A stretch of 64,000 nucleotides of DNA from contig CABZKA010000001.1 in the NCBI GenBank assembly GCA_902526165.1, positions 1-64,000 of the forward strand, written 5' to 3'. Positions within the stretch are counted from its first letter, which is position 1, and every line of letters starts with the position of its first letter. A program made the translations under genes and the position numbers. The DNA is from an uncultured Bacteroidota bacterium (lineage in GTDB: Bacteria > Bacteroidota > Bacteroidia > Flavobacteriales > Flavobacteriaceae). The notes under the pieces are model-generated. The model saw nothing but the letters and a program-made list of their open reading frames with translations. It made no database searches and was not told where the DNA came from. Below are positions 4,788-45,840 of the stretch, piece after piece.

Positions 4788-5279
4788 TTGACTTTGAGAT
4801 ATCTAGTTATTTCCTTGACTCTATTCTTGTTCGCATGTAAAGACGAAACAAAGACTAATAATATTTCTCAAGTTAATAGTGAAATAGCATTCAAGTCTTT
4901 TTTTGATCAAGCTATTATTCCTGAAATATTACAGTTAGATAGTTTGTACAATTCAGAGTTTGAAAAGTGGACGGAGTTTATAAGCTTTTCTGTAATACTA
5001 AATGATATGTCAGAGGATGATAAAAATCATAGGATCATGATCTCTTCCTTATCAAATAAATTAGATAATATTGAAATAGATAAAATACCAGATCCTTTTA
5101 ATACACCACCCATTATTGGAAGAACTAAAGTTTTAAAGACATTTGTTGAAAAAATTTCTCTCACTAGTGAATCAGAGTTTTCCACAGAAAAGTATAATGA
5201 TGATATTAAGAAAATAATAGTTTCATTTAATGCACTTGTCTACCAGTTAAATGCAAGAGTAAAAGAAATTAATTTTTGA
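4788..5279 (+). CDS. Small hypothetical lipoprotein (163 aa, TTG start)
   Basis: Signal [15 protein letters not shown]; no recognised domain; 3' end overlaps metG convergently. Confidence 0.6.
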
Positions 5280-31197: not shown

Positions 31198-32481
31198 ATG
31201 AAAAAAAATAAAATTGCAGTTGTAGGACTTGGCTATGTGGGCTTGCCCTTGGCAAGATTGTTTGCAACAAAATATCCAGTTGTAGGGTATGATATAAATC
31301 CCAGTAGGGTTTATGAAATTATGTCTGGTTTGGACTCTACTAATGAGCTTGATAGTAACGAGCTAAAAGATGTTTTAATTGATAATAAATTAGAAAAAAA
31401 TGGACTTTTTTGTTCAGATAATATAAAAAATATCAAGGACTGTAATTATTATATTATTACTGTTCCAACACCAGTTGATAATGATAATAAACCAGTTTTA
31501 AATCCATTAATAAAGGCATCTAAAACAGTTGGTGGTGTTCTAAAAAAAGGAGATATTGTTGTGTATGAATCAACTGTTTACCCTGGTGCAACTGAGGAAG
31601 ATTGTGTACCTGTTTTAGAAAAAAATTCTGGTTTAAAATATAATAAAGACTTTTATGTTGGATATTCGCCAGAGAGAATTAATCCGGGAGATAAAGAACA
31701 TACTATTGAAAAAATAATGAAGGTAACATCAGGTTCAACAAAATTAACAGCGAAAAAAGTCGATAAACTCTACAGATCAGTAATTTCTGCAGGTACTCAC
31801 ACAGCACCTTCAATTAAGGTAGCTGAAGCTGCAAAGGTAATTGAGAATTCGCAAAGAGATATTAATATCGCATTTGTGAATGAGCTATCAAAAATATTTA
31901 ATTTAATGGATATTGATACTAATGATGTTTTAGCTGCTGCGGGAACTAAGTGGAACTTTCTACCTTTCAAGCCAGGCTTAGTTGGAGGACATTGTATTGG
32001 AGTTGATCCATTTTATCTAGCACAAAAAGCTCAGGAATTTGGGTATAATCCAGAAATCATTTTGGCTGGTAGAAGAATGAATGATAGTATGGGTAATTAT
32101 ATTGCATCTGAGGTTATTAAATGTATGAAAGAGAAAAAAATTAAGATTCAAGGATCTAGTTGTTTAATCCTTGGTATAACATTTAAGGAAAATTGTCCTG
32201 ATATTAGAAATACAAAGGTAGTAGATGTCATTTTCTCATTAAAAAATTATGGTGTAAAAGTAACTATTCATGATCCATTGGCAGATGTGAATGAAGTCCA
32301 AAATGTATATGGCTTGAAAAATTTAAAATCTTTACCAACTAAAAAATTTGATTCTATTGTGTTAGCAGTTTCGCATAGTAAGTTTTCAGAAATTGATTTA
32401 TCTAGTTTAAAAGAAGAAAATTCTATAGTATATGATGTTAAGAATATGCTAGATAAATCCACAAAAGATAAAACCTTATAA
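31198..32481 (+). CDS. Nucleotide-sugar dehydrogenase (Vi polysaccharide TviB/WbpO-like)
   Basis: IAVVGLGYVGLPLARLFATKYPVVGYDIN, YESTVYPGATEEDCVPVLE, PGLVGGHCIGVDPFYLAQKA. Confidence 0.92.
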   Translation: MKKNKIAVVGLGYVGLPLARLFATKYPVVGYDINPSRVYEIMSGLDSTNELDSNELKDVLIDNKLEKNGLFCSDNIKNIKDCNYYIITVPTPVDNDNKPVLNPLIKASKTVGGVLKKGDIVVYESTVYPGATEEDCVPVLEKNSGLKYNKDFYVGYSPERINPGDKEHTIEKIMKVTSGSTKLTAKKVDKLYRSVISAGTHTAPSIKVAEAAKVIENSQRDINIAFVNELSKIFNLMDIDTNDVLAAAGTKWNFLPFKPGLVGGHCIGVDPFYLAQKAQEFGYNPEIILAGRRMNDSMGNYIASEVIKCMKEKKIKIQGSSCLILGITFKENCPDIRNTKVVDVIFSLKNYGVKVTIHDPLADVNEVQNVYGLKNLKSLPTKKFDSIVLAVSHSKFSEIDLSSLKEENSIVYDVKNMLDKSTKDKTL

Positions 32482-32512: not shown

Positions 32513-33577
32513 ATGAAAGTAGCATTCATAACGGGTGTAACAGGCCAAGACGGAGCCTATTTAAGTGAGTTTTTACTCGAAAAAGGTTATATAGTACATG
32601 GCTTAAAAAGACGCTCATCATTAATTAACACAGAGAGGATTGATCATTTATTTCAAGATCCACATGAAGAAAATAAAAATTTTTTCTTGCACTATGGTGA
32701 TATGACAGACGGTACAAATCTTATTAGATTAATTCAAGATATTCAACCCGATGAAATTTATAATTTAGCAGCCATGTCTCATGTTCGTGTTTCATTCGAA
32801 ATTCCCGAATATGTAGCAGATACAGATGCACTTGGTACGTTAAGATTACTCGAAGCCATTCGTATTTTAAAATTAGAAAATAAAACAAAAATATATCAAG
32901 CATCAACATCTGAACTTTATGGAAAAGTTCAGGAAGTTCCTCAAAATGAAAACACTCCATTTTATCCACGATCACCATATGCAGTTGCAAAAATGTATGC
33001 ATATTGGATCACAGTTAATTATCGTGAGGCATACGGAATTTTTGCATCAAATGGAATATTATTTAATCATGAAAGTCCAATCAGAGGTGAGACTTTTGTA
33101 ACTAGAAAAATCACAAGAGCTGTAGCGAAAATTGTTCTTGGAAAGCAAGATAAATTTTATTTAGGAAATTTAGATTCAAAAAGAGATTGGGGACATGCAA
33201 AAGATTATGTTAGAATGATGTGGATGATTCTTCAAACTGATAAGGCTGAGGACTGGGTTATCGCAACTGGAAAAACAACATCAATTAGAGATTTTGTAAG
33301 AATGGCATTCTCTTGTGTAGGAATTGAACTAGAATTTAAAGGATCAGGTATAAATGAAAAAGCATACATAACTAAATGTAGTTATCCGAAATACCAACTA
33401 GAGATTGGTAAAGAGGTTTTGAGCATTGATTCCAAGTATTTTAGACCAACTGAAGTCGATTTGTTAATAGGTGATCCCTCAAAAGCTAAAAGTAAACTTG
33501 GATGGAAATTAGATTACGAGCTTGAAGATATGGTCAAAGAGATGGTTGAAAGTGACCTTAATGTTATGAATCAGTAG
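32513..33577 (+). CDS. gmd: GDP-mannose 4,6-dehydratase
   Basis: [62 protein letters not shown]. Confidence 0.96.
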
Positions 33578-33584
33578 TTGAATA

Positions 33585-35129
33585 ATGGGGTTCAAAACTA
33601 ATTCTTCATTGAATAAAGGTTTTTTTGAAAGGAGATTATCTTATTATTTGATCTCACTTTTAATATTTTCTATTTTCTTATTTTACTTATTTAATTTAAT
33701 AGATTTAATAAATTTTAATTTAAGCTTAAAATGGTTTTTAGAACCAGCCGAAAATGAAAATCTTGTTTTTACTCAACATATTTTTAATGCTAGGCCATTA
33801 GATTTAATTTCCTTAATTGAAAGTGGAGTTCTACCTATATATCCTGACTTTTATCATCAACTTTCATCACTTTTTGACTGGAATATTTTATCATCCCTTA
33901 GAGCGATTAGTTCTTTTTCATTTGTTTCGTCTCTGATACTAATTTTTATTTGGTCTAAATTGATTACTAAATCAAAAATTACTTCATTGTGTATTGTACT
34001 AATAGTTTTTGGGTTGGTGGACCATTCATTTTATTTTTTGATGGCAAGAGTTGATTCCCTTTATGTCTTTTTTGGTTTAATCGGATTGTCAATTATTTTT
34101 CATTTATTTTATGATAAAAATTATAATCACTTCACTTTACAAAATTATTTATTAATTTTTATTGCTGGTTTTTTTCTGTGTTTGTCTATTTTGGTTAAAC
34201 AGACTGCGCTTTTTTTCACTTTCTATTCAATTTATATTATTTTATATTTTTCTCATTTATCAAAATCGTTTAAATATTTATTTACATTTTTAGCAGGAAT
34301 AATTGGTACTATGATTATATACAGCTTATTAGTTAATAATCATGTCCTAGATTATTTTTTGTTGGGCTTAAATGGTTGGGCTACTGATTTTTCGTATTTA
34401 AGCTTCAAGTCACATGTTCGTGAAATTATTTTTAGTTACTATGGATATTTGTTAATGATCATTCTAGGTTTTTATTCCATTTATCACAAAAAAAAAATTT
34501 TTTATTTTTGGGTATATTCATTTGTCATAGTTTTTTTATTCTCAACTAAACTTTTTGGAAATATTGCTGCATTTTACAACAACTTTATTCTATTTACAAT
34601 AGTTTCTACATTGTTTTTTATATACTTTTTTGAAAGTTCTGAAAATAGAGTCTCTTTAGTTATGTTATTAATAATTTCCATAAGCGTTTTGTTTCCTAAA
34701 TTTTATAATCAAGGATTTAAAAATTCATTTAAAGAATTTCAATATAATCAAGTATTAAATGGAAACTTTGACGACCATGAAATTTTTAAATATATAGATA
34801 AAAATGAGGGTGAATATTTATCTGGAAGAAATGATAATTTTTTATATTTTTCCAATCGGGAAATATTTTATGAAAGCTCAGTAATGAGTTCAATTATTCC
34901 AATTTATGATGAAATTAATATCATGAAAATTAAAGATCCAATACAAAAACTTGACACAAAAATTAGAGATAAAATAAATAATAAAGATTTTCAAGCTATA
35001 ATTGATGGAATTAACAATAACTTATCTAACTATAGTAAAGCCATTAATAATCACTATAGTGCTCACATAACTGATACTATTTATAGTGGAAGGCATAGAC
35101 ATGAAATTATTTTATACGTAAAAAAATAA
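33585..35129 (+). CDS. Multi-TM membrane protein, putative GT-C (ArnT/PMT-like) glycosyltransferase
   Basis: 514 aa with many hydrophobic segments and a C-terminal soluble tail; RVDSLYVFFGLIGLSIIFHL and NILSSLRAISSFSFVSSLI fit GT-C-like proteins. Confidence 0.55.
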   Translation: MGFKTNSSLNKGFFERRLSYYLISLLIFSIFLFYLFNLIDLINFNLSLKWFLEPAENENLVFTQHIFNARPLDLISLIESGVLPIYPDFYHQLSSLFDWNILSSLRAISSFSFVSSLILIFIWSKLITKSKITSLCIVLIVFGLVDHSFYFLMARVDSLYVFFGLIGLSIIFHLFYDKNYNHFTLQNYLLIFIAGFFLCLSILVKQTALFFTFYSIYIILYFSHLSKSFKYLFTFLAGIIGTMIIYSLLVNNHVLDYFLLGLNGWATDFSYLSFKSHVREIIFSYYGYLLMIILGFYSIYHKKKIFYFWVYSFVIVFLFSTKLFGNIAAFYNNFILFTIVSTLFFIYFFESSENRVSLVMLLIISISVLFPKFYNQGFKNSFKEFQYNQVLNGNFDDHEIFKYIDKNEGEYLSGRNDNFLYFSNREIFYESSVMSSIIPIYDEINIMKIKDPIQKLDTKIRDKINNKDFQAIIDGINNNLSNYSKAINNHYSAHITDTIYSGRHRHEIILYVKK

Positions 35130-35131
35130 AT

Positions 35132-36043
35132 ATGGGTAAAATTTTAGTCACTGGAGGAACAGGTTTAGTTGGTTATCATTTGAAGGAAGTAATACCTAAT
35201 GCCATATATTTAGGTTCTAAAGATTGTGATCTAACCAACTTTTCATTAACTGAAAAACTAATTCAAACTTATAAACCCAGTGTAGTTGTACATTTGGCTG
35301 CTAGAGTTGGTGGACTCTTAGATAATATAAAGTATCCGGCAGATTATTTTGATGATAATATTTTAATAAATACAAATATCTTAAAAGCATGTAGAACCAA
35401 TAATATTAGAAGATTTATTGGTGTTTTAAGTACCTGTGTATATCCTGAGAAGGTTGATAATTACCCCATGTCTGAAGATGATTTATTCACTGGCCCTCCA
35501 CCCGTATCTAATTTTAGCTATGGGTATGCAAAAAGATGTTTAGCAGTGCAAATAGAAGCCTATAACAAGCAGTTCAAAACGAACTATAATTACTTAATTC
35601 CATGTAATTTATATGGAAAATATGATGATTTAGAAGATAAAGATAAGATGCATTTTTTAACAGCACTAATGGTTAAAATTATAAATACAAAAAATAATAC
35701 TTTGAATTTATTGGGGACAGGTAAACCATTAAGGCAATTTATGTATGCGGGAGATTTAGCAAGAGTTATAAAAGAAGTTATCGAAAAAGATATTACGGAA
35801 AATTTCAATGTAGCACCCAGCTACAATTACTCAATTGATCAGATGGCAAAAATGGCATTAGAGTTCTTAGAAAAAAAATATGTGATAACCTATGAACATC
35901 CAAAACTTGATGGCCAGTTTAGAAAAGATGTATGCAATAAAAAAATGTTAAAATTAATACCTGAATTTGAATTTACTGATTTTAATAGTGGTTTTAAGAA
36001 AGTTTTTAAAATAATAGAAAAAAGATTAAATAAATTAAAATAA
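35132..36043 (+). CDS. fcl: GDP-L-fucose synthase-family epimerase/reductase
   Basis: KILVTGGTGLVGYHL, HLAARVGGLLDNIKYPADYFDDNILINTNIL, STCVYPEK, YGYAKRCLAVQIEAYNKQ, LIPCNLYGKYDD. Confidence 0.85.
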   Translation: MGKILVTGGTGLVGYHLKEVIPNAIYLGSKDCDLTNFSLTEKLIQTYKPSVVVHLAARVGGLLDNIKYPADYFDDNILINTNILKACRTNNIRRFIGVLSTCVYPEKVDNYPMSEDDLFTGPPPVSNFSYGYAKRCLAVQIEAYNKQFKTNYNYLIPCNLYGKYDDLEDKDKMHFLTALMVKIINTKNNTLNLLGTGKPLRQFMYAGDLARVIKEVIEKDITENFNVAPSYNYSIDQMAKMALEFLEKKYVITYEHPKLDGQFRKDVCNKKMLKLIPEFEFTDFNSGFKKVFKIIEKRLNKLK

Positions 36044-36053
36044 TATTCTAATT

Positions 36054-36971
36054 ATGAAAAAAGTGTTGATACTGGGTGGAACAGGATTTATTGGCTCGGA
36101 ACTTTCTAAAGTCATGTTAAAAAATAATTTCGAAGTTCATGTATTAACCCAGGGGCTATTAAATAATAATTTAATTAATGATAAAATAAAAATATTTACA
36201 ATTACATATAAGGAAAATTGTTTTAAAAAAGTATTTGAGGATAATTTATACTCCAGTATTTTTATTTTGAATGGTAATCCCCACCCATCATTTTCTTACA
36301 ACGCCCCTTTGATTGATATTAATCTTCTTACAATTCCTCTGATTTCACTTTTGGAGTCACTCAGAAAAATAAATTTTAAGGGAAATATTTGGTTTTCATC
36401 CTCTGTTGCAGTATATGGCTCCTCCTCTGGAAGGTTGAGTGAAACTTTATCACCCGATCCAATAAGCCCATATGGTATTTCCAAATTAAATGGTGAAAAA
36501 TATTGTAAGTATTACTCTAAAGAATTTGATTTAAATATAGGTATTTTACGTTTGTTTTCAACTTATGGCCCAAATCTAAAACGACAAGTTATTTATGATA
36601 CGTATGTTAAATTGATTAATAACCCAAAGGAATTAAAACTGCCATCTAGACAGAGAGACTCTAGAGATATGTCCTTTGTAGAAGATATTGCTCGAGCCAT
36701 ATGTTTCCTAGATTTAAAAGTTATGCCTAGAGGTTGTATATATAATGTGGGTTCTGGTAATGATTACCTCATAACTGAAATAGTAAAAATTATAGCGAAT
36801 GAATTAAATTATTCAGGTAAAATAACTTGTTCTAAGTCAAGCAATAGCTATAACGGAAGTTCATGGTATGCAGATATCAATAAACTTAAATCATTAGGCT
36901 TTAAACATAATTATGGATTGAAAGAAGGTTTAAAAAAAACTATAGATTACTGGAAAAAAAATAAATTGTGA
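36054..36971 (+). CDS. NAD-dependent epimerase/dehydratase (SDR)
   Basis: KKVLILGGTGFIGSELSKVML, SSSVAVYGSSSG, YGISKLNGEKYCK. Confidence 0.85.
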   Translation: MKKVLILGGTGFIGSELSKVMLKNNFEVHVLTQGLLNNNLINDKIKIFTITYKENCFKKVFEDNLYSSIFILNGNPHPSFSYNAPLIDINLLTIPLISLLESLRKINFKGNIWFSSSVAVYGSSSGRLSETLSPDPISPYGISKLNGEKYCKYYSKEFDLNIGILRLFSTYGPNLKRQVIYDTYVKLINNPKELKLPSRQRDSRDMSFVEDIARAICFLDLKVMPRGCIYNVGSGNDYLITEIVKIIANELNYSGKITCSKSSNSYNGSSWYADINKLKSLGFKHNYGLKEGLKKTIDYWKKNKL

Positions 36972-37654
36972 GCATAAGTATAATAATACCAACATTAAAT
37001 GAACAAGATAATGTTCAAAGAATTTATAAAACAGTAGTTAATATTTTTAATGAAATTAATATTGATTGGGAGATAATTTTTGTTGATGATAAAAGTGAGG
37101 ATCAAACACAATTATTAATAAAAAAATTGCCACAAAAAAAAAAAATAACTTTAATTGAGTCTCAAAACAGATTGGGACTTGGAAATGCTATTTCAATTGG
37201 TTGGAAAAATGCAAATTTGGATTATGTTCTTTTTCTTGATTGTGATAGTCACGTATCAATCAAGGATCTATTGCAGTTGATTAAATCTAGAAGCCCAGAT
37301 AGTGTAGTTATCGGAAGTAGATACTTGAAAAAATCGAAAATTAACGGAGCACCTTATATTAAAGTGTTTTTAAGTAAGATATTGAACAAGTTGGTGGGAT
37401 TTATTTTAAATATAAACATAATTGATATGTCTCATAGTTTAAGAATTCTACCAAATAAATATGTTAATATTTCAGAGGTTTTAACACATCCTGGTTATTT
37501 TTGGGCCTTAACTAAGAAGTTTAAAAAATTAAACTTTAAACTATTAGAAATTCCAATTACTTTTAATGAAAGAGAGCTTGGTTCCACAAAAAATACAAGT
37601 TTTAAAATGATCAAGTCTGTTATAAGTTCTTTATATATAATTTCAAAAATATAA
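36968..37654 (+). CDS. GT2 glycosyltransferase (polyprenyl-phosphate sugar synthase-like)
   Basis: ISIIIPTLNEQDNVQRIYKTV, IIFVDDKSEDQTQLLIKKL, LFLDCDSHVSIKDLLQLI; GTG start overlapping the upstream stop. Confidence 0.85.
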   Translation: MSISIIIPTLNEQDNVQRIYKTVVNIFNEINIDWEIIFVDDKSEDQTQLLIKKLPQKKKITLIESQNRLGLGNAISIGWKNANLDYVLFLDCDSHVSIKDLLQLIKSRSPDSVVIGSRYLKKSKINGAPYIKVFLSKILNKLVGFILNINIIDMSHSLRILPNKYVNISEVLTHPGYFWALTKKFKKLNFKLLEIPITFNERELGSTKNTSFKMIKSVISSLYIISKI

Positions 37655-37656
37655 CT

Positions 37657-38955
37657 ATGATTAAAAAAAAGGCTTATGTAATTGGAGGGGGTCCGCTTGG
37701 TTTAGCGCTGAGCACAAAACTAATTGAAGATGGTTACTCTGTCATAATAATTGAAGCAAGTAACAAATTATTAGGATTAGCCGGAACATTTAATTACAAT
37801 GATGTCGATATAGAGTATTATTACCATTTTTTTTACAAAAATGATCATTTCAACTCTTACAATTGGCTTAAAAAATATTCAAAAACTAATCCACTTATAT
37901 TTTGGAAAGATATTTCTACAGACTCTGTTGTTTCTGGTGCAAGATATGACTTAGATTCAATTTTCTCAGTGATTAAATTAAGTGGCACTAAAATATTTAC
38001 GGTTCTTTTTACTTTAGTTAAGTTAATTTTTTTTAATCCCAGTAAAAATTTGGATCGCATGTCTGCCGAATTGTGGGCAAAAAAGAGATTTGGGCAAAAG
38101 TTTGCTAGTCAAATATGGATACCTCTACTTAGACAAAAATTTGGGGACAGATCTTCGGATGTTTCTGCATTATGGTTGGCAACAAGAATTAAAAGACATT
38201 TATCAACAAGAGGAAAAGGAGTTGGTAAATCTAAATTTGGATATTTAGTAAAAACTTATAATTCATTTGTTAGTAAATTCAAGAAAGAACTAATATCATC
38301 GGGGGGTTCAGTTTATTTTAATCAACCTGTAACAGGTTTTTCCATTTCAAACCAAAAAATTTCTAAAGTAATAACTAAATCCATGGAGTTTAATGTAGGT
38401 AACTCACCTGTTTTTAGTGCGATTCCTTATGCAATTTTAAAAAAATTATTTAAAAAAGATAATTACGTTCAAGGACTTGAACCTTTTGTGAACATGAGCG
38501 TAGTAGTTTGCCTTTTGATTGCGGATAAAAAATTATCTGATCATTATTGGACTACTGTTTCTGATAATGATCATGAATTTGCCGCCATTATTCAACAAAA
38601 CAGATTGTATAAAAAAACAAGCGATGAAATTATTTATTTATCACGTTACTGTGAGCCGGATAACAAATTATTTGGTTTATCTGATGATAAAATTTACAAA
38701 AATTGGATAAAATCAATAATTAAAATTTATCCACACTTTTCAATGAAAAATATTATTGATTATAAAATTTTTAGATCCAAAAATGCAGCCCCATTACCAT
38801 TTATAAATTCTATATCACAAATGTCTAAATTAAAGTCGAATCTAGAAAATTTTTATTTTTCTGGTTATGAAAGTATTTATCCTGAGGATCGAGGGGTTGG
38901 AAATTCAATTAAGCTTGGATATAAATTATTCTATGATTTTAAAAACAATCTATGA
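37657..38955 (+). CDS. NAD(P)/FAD-dependent oxidoreductase (amine-oxidase/protoporphyrinogen-oxidase-like)
   Basis: AYVIGGGPLGLALSTKLIEDGYSVIIIEAS Rossmann FAD motif; C-terminal FYFSGYESIYPEDRGVGNSIKLGYKL. Confidence 0.8.
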   Translation: MIKKKAYVIGGGPLGLALSTKLIEDGYSVIIIEASNKLLGLAGTFNYNDVDIEYYYHFFYKNDHFNSYNWLKKYSKTNPLIFWKDISTDSVVSGARYDLDSIFSVIKLSGTKIFTVLFTLVKLIFFNPSKNLDRMSAELWAKKRFGQKFASQIWIPLLRQKFGDRSSDVSALWLATRIKRHLSTRGKGVGKSKFGYLVKTYNSFVSKFKKELISSGGSVYFNQPVTGFSISNQKISKVITKSMEFNVGNSPVFSAIPYAILKKLFKKDNYVQGLEPFVNMSVVVCLLIADKKLSDHYWTTVSDNDHEFAAIIQQNRLYKKTSDEIIYLSRYCEPDNKLFGLSDDKIYKNWIKSIIKIYPHFSMKNIIDYKIFRSKNAAPLPFINSISQMSKLKSNLENFYFSGYESIYPEDRGVGNSIKLGYKLFYDFKNNL

Positions 38956-39350
38956 TAGCTTTCATCAAGAAAAAAATATTATCAAATAGAATCTATAGGT
39001 ATATAATTGTTGGAATTACTAATAACATAATTTATTATGGTCTTTTTCTATCACTTGTTTATTTAATCGAAGTCCACTATAGTATTTCCATGACAGTTTC
39101 TTTCATAATTTCAATTGTTACTGGATATTTTTTACATACTGGTTTTACATTTTCTGTAAAACAATATCACTTGGTAACTTTTCTAAAATATTTTTTTTTA
39201 TACACCCTGTCAATTTTTTTAAACTACTTAATATTATATACTTTTATTGATTTCTTAAATTATGATGCTTGGTTTGCTCAAATTATTGGAACAATTTTAA
39301 TCGCAATGTTTCTTTTCTTTTGCTTAAAAACATTTATATATAAAACTTAA
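38952..39350 (+). CDS. GtrA family protein
   Basis: 132 aa, four TM segments, RYIIVGITNNIIYYGLFLSLVYL; overlaps upstream gene by 4 bp. Confidence 0.82.
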   Translation: MIAFIKKKILSNRIYRYIIVGITNNIIYYGLFLSLVYLIEVHYSISMTVSFIISIVTGYFLHTGFTFSVKQYHLVTFLKYFFLYTLSIFLNYLILYTFIDFLNYDAWFAQIIGTILIAMFLFFCLKTFIYKT

Positions 39351-39362
39351 TTATTAATACTT

Positions 39363-40520
39363 ATGAAATATAATCTCGCGTCTTCTACATGGGGCAAAGA
39401 AGAAATTAACGCTATCAAATCTGTAATTGAAAGCGATATGTATTCAATGGGAAAAAAAGTCTTCGAATATGAAAGAGACTTCGCTTCTTTTTTTAATTCT
39501 AAATATGCAGTAATGACAAGTTCTGGTTCAACTGCAAATTTAATTGCAACAGCTGCCCTTTTTTATACCAAAAAAAATAAACTGAAGAGAGGAGATGAGG
39601 TAATTGTACCTGCAGTATCTTGGTCCACAACATACTTTCCTTTACACCAATATGGCCTAAAACTTAAATTTGTTGATATCGATTTACTTACATTAAACTA
39701 CGATTTAGAATCTTTAAAATCAGCAATTTCTTCCAAAACCAAATTAATAATGATTGTGAATCTACTAGGAAACCCGAATGACTTCTCATATATAAATGAT
39801 TTGATAGAAAATAGAGATATTTTATTAATTGAAGACAATTGCGAGTCTATGGGAGCTAAGTTCAATAATAAATATACAGGCACCTTTGGAATTATGGGAA
39901 CGTTTTCTACTTTTTTCTCTCATCACATGGCAACAATGGAGGGAGGAGTTGTATTAACAGACAATGAGGAGTTGTACCATATACTATTATCTTTAAGAGC
40001 GCATGGTTGGACTAGGAATCTACCGGCAATTAATCATGTTTCTAATAAGGGTGATAATCCTTTTGATGAATCCTTTAGATTTGTGCTGCCAGGGTATAAT
40101 GTTAGACCTTTGGAAATGAGCGGTGCTATTGGTATTGAACAATTAAAAAAACTACCAAAATTTTTAAAAAATAGAATAGATAATGGTATTTTATTTACAG
40201 AATTATTTAGAGACAATAAACACTTCATAGTTCAAGAACAAATTGGAATTAGTTCTTGGTTTGGATTTTCATTAATAATTAAACCCGAGTCTAAATTTAA
40301 AAGAGAAAACATTGTTAAAAAATTAAGGAATGCTGACATAGAATGTAGACCCATTGTTACAGGTGATTTTACACAAAATGAAGTCATGAAATATATTAGT
40401 CATGAAATTCATGGAGATCTTAAGAATGCAAAATATTTACATACTAATGGTTTTTTTGTTGGAAATCACCAAATTCCTATTCATGATGAAATAAAATATT
40501 TATTTGATTTATTGTCATAA
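39363..40520 (+). CDS. colD: GDP-4-keto-6-deoxy-D-mannose 3-dehydratase-like PLP enzyme (ColD-type)
   Basis: SSTWGKEEINAIKSVIESDMYSMG, VPAVSWSTTYFPLHQYGLK, active-site region FSTFFSHHMATMEGG (His instead of Lys), LRAHGWTRNLP. Confidence 0.82.
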   Translation: MKYNLASSTWGKEEINAIKSVIESDMYSMGKKVFEYERDFASFFNSKYAVMTSSGSTANLIATAALFYTKKNKLKRGDEVIVPAVSWSTTYFPLHQYGLKLKFVDIDLLTLNYDLESLKSAISSKTKLIMIVNLLGNPNDFSYINDLIENRDILLIEDNCESMGAKFNNKYTGTFGIMGTFSTFFSHHMATMEGGVVLTDNEELYHILLSLRAHGWTRNLPAINHVSNKGDNPFDESFRFVLPGYNVRPLEMSGAIGIEQLKKLPKFLKNRIDNGILFTELFRDNKHFIVQEQIGISSWFGFSLIIKPESKFKRENIVKKLRNADIECRPIVTGDFTQNEVMKYISHEIHGDLKNAKYLHTNGFFVGNHQIPIHDEIKYLFDLLS

Positions 40521-40556: not shown

Positions 40557-41417
40557 ATGATTATAATACGCTTTATAGGTGGTCTGGGTAATCAGATGTT
40601 TCAGTATTTACTATATGATCAGTTAAAATCTATAAATATCAACGTTAAAGCTGATATTAATGATTTTAAATCATACAAATTACATAATGGTTTTGAACTT
40701 GAAAAAGTATTTGAAATTAATTTAGATAAAGCATCGAATAAAGAAATAAAAAACCTAAAAGATTCAAGTTTACAATTTTTATCGCGATTTCGCAGAAAAC
40801 TCTTAGGAAAAAAAAAATCTCATGTTTATCAAAATCAAATGAGCTTAGAATTAATTAAAAAACAGAGAAATTTATATTTGGATGGATACTGGCAATCTAA
40901 AAAATATATTAATTCATCCTTAAGTAACCCAAACAAAAAATTCAAATTTCGATTAAATCCCTCAAAAGTTAATAAAGATTTAATTAATGAAATTAATGAA
41001 TTTAACTCTATTAGTATTCACGTAAGGAGAGGAGATTATTTAAAACTCAGTGATACTTTTTCTAAATGTACAATAGGGTATTATCAAACTGCCATTTCAC
41101 ATATGGAAACTAATTTAAAGAACTGTGTTTTTTATATTTTTTCAAATGATATATTGTGGTGTAAAGAAAAATTGATTTTTAATAAATCAAAATTTAGATT
41201 TATTTCTCATAACTCTGGAATTAATAGTTATGAGGATATGAGACTGATGAAAATGTGTAAGCACAATATTATAGCTAATAGTTCTTTTAGTTGGTGGGCT
41301 GCAGTACTTAATGATAATAGCAAGAAAGTGGTAATTTCACCTAAAAGATGGTACGTGGAAAAAAATATGTCTGATGAGATCTTCATTCCAAATGAATGGC
41401 TCAAATTTGACAATTAA
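40557..41417 (+). CDS. GT11 family (alpha-1,2-fucosyltransferase-like) glycosyltransferase
   Basis: IIRFIGGLGNQMFQYLLYDQL, SIHVRRGDYL, IIANSSFSWWAAVLN, VISPKRWY. Confidence 0.93.
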   Translation: MIIIRFIGGLGNQMFQYLLYDQLKSININVKADINDFKSYKLHNGFELEKVFEINLDKASNKEIKNLKDSSLQFLSRFRRKLLGKKKSHVYQNQMSLELIKKQRNLYLDGYWQSKKYINSSLSNPNKKFKFRLNPSKVNKDLINEINEFNSISIHVRRGDYLKLSDTFSKCTIGYYQTAISHMETNLKNCVFYIFSNDILWCKEKLIFNKSKFRFISHNSGINSYEDMRLMKMCKHNIIANSSFSWWAAVLNDNSKKVVISPKRWYVEKNMSDEIFIPNEWLKFDN

Positions 41418-43935: not shown

Positions 43936-45840
43936 ATGTGTGGAATTTGTGGTTTTATTGATTTTAAATTTAATAGTGGTATTCAGATTCTAGAAGAAAT
44001 GGTTTCTGCTCAAAATCACAGAGGTCCAGATGATAACGGCTCTCTTATATTTAAAAAAGAAAATTTTGTTGTCGGGCTTGGACATACAAGACTATCAATT
44101 TTAGACCTTACAAAGCTTGGTAAACAACCCATGAAATTTGAAAACCTTTCTATCGTTTATAATGGAGAGATATATAATTTCAAAGAAATAAAAAAAGAAT
44201 TGGTTTTACTAGGACACAGCTTTTTTTCAGATTCAGATACAGAGGTTATTCTTCATTCTTTTAAAGAATGGGGTATTAAATGTGTTGAAAAATTTATTGG
44301 AATGTTTGTTTTTTTAATTTTTGACCGTTTAAACAATAAAATAACTGTTTTTAGGGATAGAGCTGGAGTAAAACCATTTTATTATTATTGGAATCAAGAT
44401 TTATTTTTATTTTCATCTGAACTAAAGACTTTTCATAAACATCCAAAGTTTTTAAAGAAGGTTGACATTTCTTCGGTGCACCAATATATGGATTTTGGAT
44501 ATATTCCTGCTCCTTATTGTATTTTCCAAGGTTGCAAAAAATTGGAATCTGGTCACATATTGACATTCGATTTAAAAACCAAAGTAATAGAACTAACCAA
44601 ATATTGGGATGTCACCAGTTTTTATAAAATGGATAAACTTAAAATTACGTATAAAGAAGCCAAACTACAATTAGAAAAATTATTAAAATCATCATTTGAG
44701 TACAGAATGGTTTCTGATGTCCCTGTTGGTGTCTTTTTAAGTGGGGGCTTCGACTCAACCGCGGTTACTGCAGTGCTACAAAATGGCAGGTCTGATAAAC
44801 TAAAAACTTATACTATAGGGTTTCAGAAAGGAAAAGATGATAATTCATTTTATAATGAAGCTCCCTTTGCAAAAGCAATTGCTAATCATTTGGGTACTGA
44901 TCACAAAGAATATTATTGTTCTGAAAAACAGGCTCAAAAAATAATTCCTGAACTTCCTCATTTTTATGATGAACCATTTGGGGATAGTTCAGCAATACCA
45001 ACGACTTTAGTAAGTAGAATAGCCAAAGAAGATGTAACGGTGGTATTATCAGCTGATGGTGGTGATGAGATATTTGGAGGATATTCTATTTATACAACTT
45101 TTTTAAAAAATCTAGCGATAATAAATACTGTACCTAATATTTGTAAAAAACCATTAAGTAAGCTTTTAAAATTGGTTCAGTATTTTATTCCAGTCCAAAA
45201 AAATAATTTAAAGAATAAAATTAATGTTTTTTCTTACTTGTTAAGTTTAAATAAAAATAAGCTTCATCAAGAACTTTTTAAAAAGTATTTTAAACTAAAT
45301 AGTTCTATAAAAAAAAATCTATTTGTTAATAATGCAGAAACAAGAACAACAAAATTTGATTGTGATTTTAGTGACTTTAAAAAAGACTTATCGATTCCTA
45401 TGTGTATAGATTATTCTATGTATCTGGAAGATGATATTTTAACTAAAGTGGATAGAGCAACAATGTCAACTTCAATTGAAGGTAGAGAGCCGTTTTTAGA
45501 TCATAGGATAATCGAATTTGTTGCACGATTACCTATTAGTTTTAAATATGGAGTAACCCAAAAAAAAATTTTGAAAGATATAGTATATAAATATGTTCCA
45601 AAAGAATTGATGGATAGACCCAAATCAGGTTTTTCAATTCCAATTAATTATTGGTTAAAAAATGATTTAAAATACTTAATTGATCAAAATTTAGATTTAA
45701 AATCAATTAAAAAATCAAAAATTTTTAAACCCTTAAAAGTTGAAAATTTAAAGAAAAGTTTTTTTAAGGGAGATTTAGATAATTCAGATGTTATATGGAA
45801 ATTATTACAATTTCAAATGTGGTTTAAAAAATGGATGTAA
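43936..45840 (+). CDS. asnB: Asparagine synthase (glutamine-hydrolysing)-family amidotransferase
   Basis: MCGICGFIDF, HRGPDD, FLSGGFDSTAVTAVL, STSIEGREPFLDH. Confidence 0.95.
   Translation: MCGICGFIDFKFNSGIQILEEMVSAQNHRGPDDNGSLIFKKENFVVGLGHTRLSILDLTKLGKQPMKFENLSIVYNGEIYNFKEIKKELVLLGHSFFSDSDTEVILHSFKEWGIKCVEKFIGMFVFLIFDRLNNKITVFRDRAGVKPFYYYWNQDLFLFSSELKTFHKHPKFLKKVDISSVHQYMDFGYIPAPYCIFQGCKKLESGHILTFDLKTKVIELTKYWDVTSFYKMDKLKITYKEAKLQLEKLLKSSFEYRMVSDVPVGVFLSGGFDSTAVTAVLQNGRSDKLKTYTIGFQKGKDDNSFYNEAPFAKAIANHLGTDHKEYYCSEKQAQKIIPELPHFYDEPFGDSSAIPTTLVSRIAKEDVTVVLSADGGDEIFGGYSIYTTFLKNLAIINTVPNICKKPLSKLLKLVQYFIPVQKNNLKNKINVFSYLLSLNKNKLHQELFKKYFKLNSSIKKNLFVNNAETRTTKFDCDFSDFKKDLSIPMCIDYSMYLEDDILTKVDRATMSTSIEGREPFLDHRIIEFVARLPISFKYGVTQKKILKDIVYKYVPKELMDRPKSGFSIPINYWLKNDLKYLIDQNLDLKSIKKSKIFKPLKVENLKKSFFKGDLDNSDVIWKLLQFQMWFKKWM

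Follow-up and report, generated by a model that had tools for sequence, protein, structure and literature searches.

A divergent PRK07233-type flavoenzyme in a putative lipid-linked sugar cassette of an uncultured Flavobacteriaceae bacterium

Results

Gene content of the locus

The window, i.e. the whole stretch of 64,000 bp that was analyzed, comes from contig 1 of a 1.2-Mb genome assembly that is 73% complete. Four ORFs encoding an SDR, a GT2, an FAD enzyme and a GtrA-family protein lie on the plus strand at 36054–39350, and their coordinates and strand were confirmed (Table 1). The SDR and GT2 genes overlap by 4 bp (GTGA, 36968–36971), a 2-nt gap separates the GT2 and FAD genes, and the FAD and GtrA genes again overlap by 4 bp (ATGA, 38952–38955). 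The first-pass annotation had described these genes as overlapping or abutting and had assigned them to an SDR, a polyprenyl-phosphate-sugar synthase-like GT2, an amine-oxidase-type FAD enzyme and GtrA. The arrangement was borne out by the coordinates and the GTGA and ATGA junctions, and the identities, by the Pfam and NCBIfam matches and motifs given below.

The polysaccharide locus around the cassette (27.8–47 kb) is closely packed throughout; tight spacing is ordinary there, and hence the coupling of the four genes alone is nothing special. Promoter- and terminator-like matches in the locus were no commoner than in shuffled sequences. What goes beyond chance is that the same gene families recur around relatives of the FAD enzyme in other genomes. 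Other genes of the locus encode RmlABCD-type proteins, a TviB-like dehydrogenase, Gmd, an Fcl-like SDR, GT11, Wzx, Wzy_C, an AsnB-like protein, and Wza and Wzc-type proteins, the Rml, Wza and Wzc names having been read from sequence alone. The assembly contains one close homologue of the FAD enzyme and one GtrA, and thus the cassette is present in a single copy.

The TviB-like UDP-HexNAc 6-dehydrogenase and the AsnB-like amidotransferase of the same locus suggest an amidated amino-sugar uronic acid in the glycan. The DegT-type enzyme carries His at the expected PLP lysine site (FFSHHMATMEGG) and resembles RfbH (258 bits); together with Gmd (594 bits) and the Fcl-like SDR this looks like the GDP-L-colitose pathway, and GT11 is likely a colitosyl- or fucosyltransferase.

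Table 1. Positions of the cassette genes and of other genes of the locus in the window.
Feature	Position	Strand	Length (aa)	Description
TviB-like enzyme	31198..32481			UDP-HexNAc 6-dehydrogenase
Gmd	at 32513
Membrane protein	33585..35129	+	514	about 10 hydrophobic segments
Fcl-like SDR	at 35132
SDR	36054..36971	+	305	extended SDR (NAD-dependent epimerase/dehydratase)
GT2	36968..37654	+	228	GTG start; GtrB/dolichol-phosphate-mannose-synthase-like
FAD enzyme	37657..38955	+	432	divergent NF005560/PRK07233 member
GtrA	38952..39350	+	132	GtrA-family small membrane protein
DegT-type enzyme	39363..40520			RfbH-like
GT11	at 40557
AsnB-like enzyme	43936..45840			amidotransferase

SDR, GT2, GtrA and the 514-aa membrane protein

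The SDR matches PF01370 (1.7e-34) with intact NAD and YxxxK motifs (GGTGFIG and YGISK), and it scores under every NCBIfam equivalog cut-off. Its candidate roles are keto-sugar reduction and NDP-sugar supply. GT2 matches PF00535 (9e-26) and contains the motifs DCD (DxD) and RELGSTK (RxxGx(S/T)K). The closest solved structure is the archaeal dolichol-phosphate mannose synthase (DPMS) 5mlz (7.7e-19), and the phage group PHROG 841, annotated as 'GtrB-like', is matched as well (1.6e-30). Given its relationship to DPMS and GtrB and these motifs, GT2 is regarded as a putative polyprenyl-phosphate sugar synthase. No transmembrane segment of its own was found by hydropathy.

GtrA matches PF04138 (2.2e-18; about 67 bits vs the cut-off of 26.1), currently named 'GtrA/DPMS, transmembrane domain', and has four hydrophobic segments by hydropathy. 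It could be a flippase, a membrane anchor or transmembrane partner for the soluble GT2, or both at once. For Rv3789, the GtrA protein of mycobacteria, published evidence is divided between flippase and anchor (PMC7389260). The 514-aa membrane protein is polytopic by hydropathy and yielded no Pfam, NCBIfam or PHROG match and no homologue at E ≤ 1e-5 in 297 genomes of the phylum; its single-sequence AF2 model was uninformative (pLDDT 44). It is a candidate for the GT-C transferase of the system.

Family and fold of the FAD enzyme

The FAD protein exceeds the cut-off of NF005560/PRK07233 (272.1 vs 252 bits, 7.9e-81, residues 6–428), an entry named 'hypothetical protein' that describes a family without assigned function, and also matches PF13450 (4.7e-07). 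It keeps the near-invariant family residues Y56, H57, D63, K161, Y196 and Y331, and replaces G39, N300, E313, Q378, P390 and others. It forms a deep, uncertainly placed branch (support 0.46) with only about 20–28% identity to the proteins of the 80 loci surveyed below. Since the branch is deep and near-invariant residues are lost, its reaction may differ from that of its relatives.

No close relative of this protein was found in about 400 genomes of the phylum (best identity 28%), in 400 genomes of the family (best identity 25%), or in the genome-contig and viral-contig collections. The cassette had no close homologues in phages, GT2 produced no match at 1e-30 in 297 genomes of the phylum, and no close copy of the cassette order was present in the related genomes searched.

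The AF2 model of the FAD protein (pLDDT 88.9, pTM 0.89) was compared with known structures by Foldseek. Phytoene desaturase 5mog (TMq 0.80) and protoporphyrinogen oxidase (PPOX, TMq 0.76) were among the matches, with fungal UDP-galactopyranose mutase (UGM) at rank 48 (TMq 0.72). In the profile search the scores fell from phytoene desaturase (80.7 bits) to PPOX (62), MAO (59) and UGM (1i8t, 47). Matches in the viral fold library were confined to amine oxidases of generic type and other flavoproteins. The predicted fold is therefore described as phytoene desaturase/PPOX-like, a type that handles hydrophobic substrates from the membrane. As its neighbors include phytoene desaturase, PPOX, MAO and UGM, the fold does not fix the chemistry.

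Two other identities named in the first-pass annotation were checked. The enzyme does not look like a UGM: the GLF domain (PF03275) is absent from both the protein and the genome assembly, and the hhalign similarity is confined to the N-terminal nucleotide-binding half (residues 6–171). A carotenoid or porphyrin enzyme agrees with the fold, but disagrees with the gene neighborhood and with the equivalog scores, which are 23.2 bits vs 569.4 for TIGR02731 and 20.1 vs 238.1 for TIGR02734 (carotenoid desaturases); no PPOX model occurs among the NCBIfam matches of the protein.

Genomic neighborhoods of FAD relatives

An alignment of FAD family members served as the bait. It led to 523 confirmed relatives in species genomes, from which 80 loci, forming one clade with named relatives from many phyla, were retained. 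A first mixed alignment had given no searchable motif. A gene counted as a neighbor if it lay within 1.4 kb of the FAD gene and on its strand. The outgroup comprised 20 amine-oxidase-type loci from the phylum search that scored under the family cut-off, all from Bacteroidota. With HMMs built from seeds and then iterated on the same 80 loci, at least one of GT2, LPG_synthase_TM, GtrA and UbiA was found near the FAD gene in 72/80 loci vs 0/20 in the outgroup (Fisher p 6e-15). GT2 was present in 64 of the 80 loci, LPG_synthase_TM (PF03706) in 51 and GtrA in six, GT2-LPG_TM-FAD being a frequent gene order. The GT2 and LPG_TM counts collapse past 1–2 kb, and representative neighbors were confirmed by Pfam and NCBIfam. 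Hence the conserved GT2/GtrA neighborhood, the main check that the first-pass annotation had proposed, was recovered: there is a strong association between the FAD family and genes of polyprenyl-phosphate-sugar metabolism. An SDR is linked to the FAD gene in three of the 80 loci. We found no open-access text dealing with NF005560-type FAD proteins next to GtrA, UbiA or DprE. One locus, from Acetobacter lovaniensis (L114), contains two adjoining FAD-family reading frames, representing either a tandem duplication or a gene that is split.

DprE operons and other settings of the FAD gene

The operon UbiA-DprE1-DprE2-SDR-FAD-GtrA was found on four proteobacterial plasmids, from Burkholderia stagnalis, Rhodobacteraceae SC52, Agrobacterium salinitolerans and Rhizobium tumorigenes. 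The same order is seen in Chlorobi-type genomes (L032–L034, L036), with an extra large ORF between DprE2 and SDR in L032, L033 and L036. UbiA of these operons is a UbiA-HAD, DPPR synthase-like protein that scores above the NF006088 cut-off (447–649 bits vs 351); the DprE1 and DprE2 scores, 318–441 and 148–176 bits, do not reach the equivalog cut-offs (500 and 250). A locus on an Embleya plasmid is unannotated, and its GC content is too high for the simple ORF caller. It follows from the gene order that SDR-FAD-GtrA comes after the polyprenyl-arabinose enzymes, and that the trio of the window recurs behind a different synthase. In Azorhizobium the DprE-type polyprenyl-arabinose pathway is encoded in the noeCHOP operon for Nod-factor arabinosylation, and donor synthesis is described there without an amine-oxidase-type FAD enzyme, an extended SDR or GtrA (PMC2443382, PMC5080398); hence SDR-FAD in the DprE operons probably does something additional. 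The SDRs of the window and of the DprE operons had no significant BLASTP match to each other. No DprE1 match was found in the 73%-complete assembly, and thus the system of the window does not itself extend a DprE pathway.

In Flavobacteriaceae loci SDR and FAD are joined by a 4-bp overlap, and the next genes are those for a polysaccharide deacetylase, GT2 and polytopic GTC. The deacetylase (PF01522) stands after the FAD gene in L148–L155 of this family and also in L040 and L041, which suggests N-deacetylation of a lipid-linked amino sugar. A sulfotransferase (PF13469) is encoded at 5084–6121 of L150, inside an SDR-FAD-deacetylase-GTC-GtrA cluster. An alphaproteobacterial locus (L087) contains the same four families as the window contiguously, in the order SDR-GT2-GtrA-FAD. 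In another locus (L129) the order is FAD-GalE-GT2-LPG_TM, the linked SDR being GalE (408.7 bits vs the cut-off of 262.3). Overall, the SDRs next to FAD belong to different subfamilies in different clades.

Discussion

The best reading of the cassette is a lipid-linked sugar system, with a GtrB-like synthase and a GtrA flippase or anchor, in which a flavin-dependent step on the polyprenyl-phosphate sugar would be added. Gene identities, the fold prediction and the recurrent neighborhood form the observed basis, from which we infer every catalytic step, the substrates and the order of steps. The soluble GT2 would transfer a sugar from an NDP-sugar onto polyprenyl phosphate. At the cytosolic face the FAD enzyme would then work on this product, and a polyprenyl-phosphate sugar is indeed its probable substrate. 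Most likely it would oxidize a sugar hydroxyl and the SDR would reduce the product back, giving an epimer or another modified sugar; such chemistry would resemble that of DprE1/DprE2 on another FAD fold. GtrA would carry the product across the membrane or anchor the soluble enzymes, and a GT-C, possibly the 514-aa membrane protein, would pass the sugar to the glycan. The cassette may thereby serve as a lipid-linked sugar donor module for the surrounding O-antigen/exopolysaccharide locus, an assignment that we regard as plausible and tentative.

Three separate settings show SDR and FAD coupled, which is why we favor oxidation of the sugar followed by reduction by the SDR. For the enzymes of the window, this oxidase/reductase chemistry is nonetheless rather doubtful. 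The pairing proposed in the first-pass annotation was not supported by the survey, with an SDR beside FAD in 3/80 loci, GalE as the SDR of L129 and the negative BLASTP comparison. Of the accompanying parallel with DprE1/DprE2 and GtrA, the part that is supported is the SDR-FAD-GtrA trio downstream of DprE1/DprE2 homologues.

For the window it is nearly as likely that the SDR makes the NDP-sugar for GT2, outside the lipid-linked step, leaving modification of the lipid-linked sugar to the FAD enzyme alone. The GalE of L129, above its cut-off and next to GT2, suggests such NDP-sugar supply; in most loci of the 80-locus clade FAD is accompanied by GT2 but not by an SDR, and the SDR subfamily varies among clades. 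On the other hand, the DprE operons and the Flavobacteriaceae have the SDR directly upstream of FAD, with an overlap or a spacing of a few nucleotides, and the sugar of the DprE operons comes from PRPP via UbiA, with no NDP-sugar-using GT2 ahead.

A non-redox pyranose-furanose mutase that acts on polyprenyl-phosphate sugars in a UGM-like mode is an unlikely identity for the FAD enzyme. UGM belongs to the same superfamily (1i8t, fungal UGM), and a mutase would account for the lack of an SDR beside FAD in the large clade and for the presence of GalE next to it in L129. However, only the FAD-binding half (residues 6–171) resembles UGM, phytoene desaturase and PPOX outscore it in both sequence and fold, and the substrate in the DprE operons would be a furanose already. 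Less probable still, the adjacency could reflect only a packed O-antigen mosaic, with the FAD enzyme modifying something unrelated, such as an NDP-sugar. This would agree with the tight packing of the whole locus and with the failure to find the cassette order in a close relative among the related genomes searched, but the association recurs across many phyla, in four different gene arrangements, and the outgroup count is zero. Least probable is alteration of the polyprenyl chain (desaturation, saturation or isomerization of an isoprene unit) instead of the sugar: plant phytoene desaturase, which gives the best profile match and ranks among the closest folds, acts on a polyprenoid, and a constant carrier-lipid substrate would explain the company of many different sugar synthases, but the GtrABC and DprE precedents are not known to require a modified carrier and the recurrent SDR beside FAD in several clades points to the sugar.

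Like the three-component GtrA/GtrB/Gtr system of O-antigen glycosylation, the window has a GtrB-like GT2, GtrA and a candidate GT-C nearby; it differs by the additional SDR and FAD genes, by a short, soluble GT2 and by a GT-C that is only a candidate. With the mycobacterial DPA pathway (Rv3806c UbiA, Rv3807c, DprE1, DprE2 and Rv3789 GtrA) it shares an FAD oxidoreductase, an SDR and GtrA around a polyprenyl-phosphate sugar. The differences are GT2 in place of UbiA and an amine-oxidase-type FAD fold, whereas DprE1, a tuberculosis drug target, has the VAO/FAD_binding_4 fold. To our knowledge, few enzymes have been documented to change a sugar once it is loaded on the carrier lipid. The examples discussed are DprE1/DprE2 and, recently, one SDR (PMC11127046). 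An SDR epimerase working singly on undecaprenyl-phosphate ribose is documented, as are DprE1/DprE2 homologues in O-antigen systems (PMC11127046). In the Citrobacter youngae O1/O2 pentofuranose system the SDR epimerase ORF13 is proposed to act on an undecaprenyl-phosphate sugar prior to export; this system has no FAD enzyme, a MATE flippase, and PPPRS instead of GT2 (PMC11127046).

We tentatively propose, as a possibility somewhat short of an even chance, that PRK07233-type enzymes form a second, independent class of flavoenzymes editing polyprenyl-phosphate-bound sugars. This would be a parallel to DprE1 on the phytoene desaturase/amine oxidase fold, usable with donors made by GT2 or by UbiA/DprE, and would yield sugars unobtainable from NDP-sugars. 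If so, a function would be given to a so far unnamed family, of which the scanned species genomes contain at least 523 relatives, and outside mycobacteria DprE homologues may supply substrates to further enzymes. The bacterial routes to surface-sugar diversity would then expand via a widespread flavoenzyme family, including operons that already contain DprE1/DprE2.
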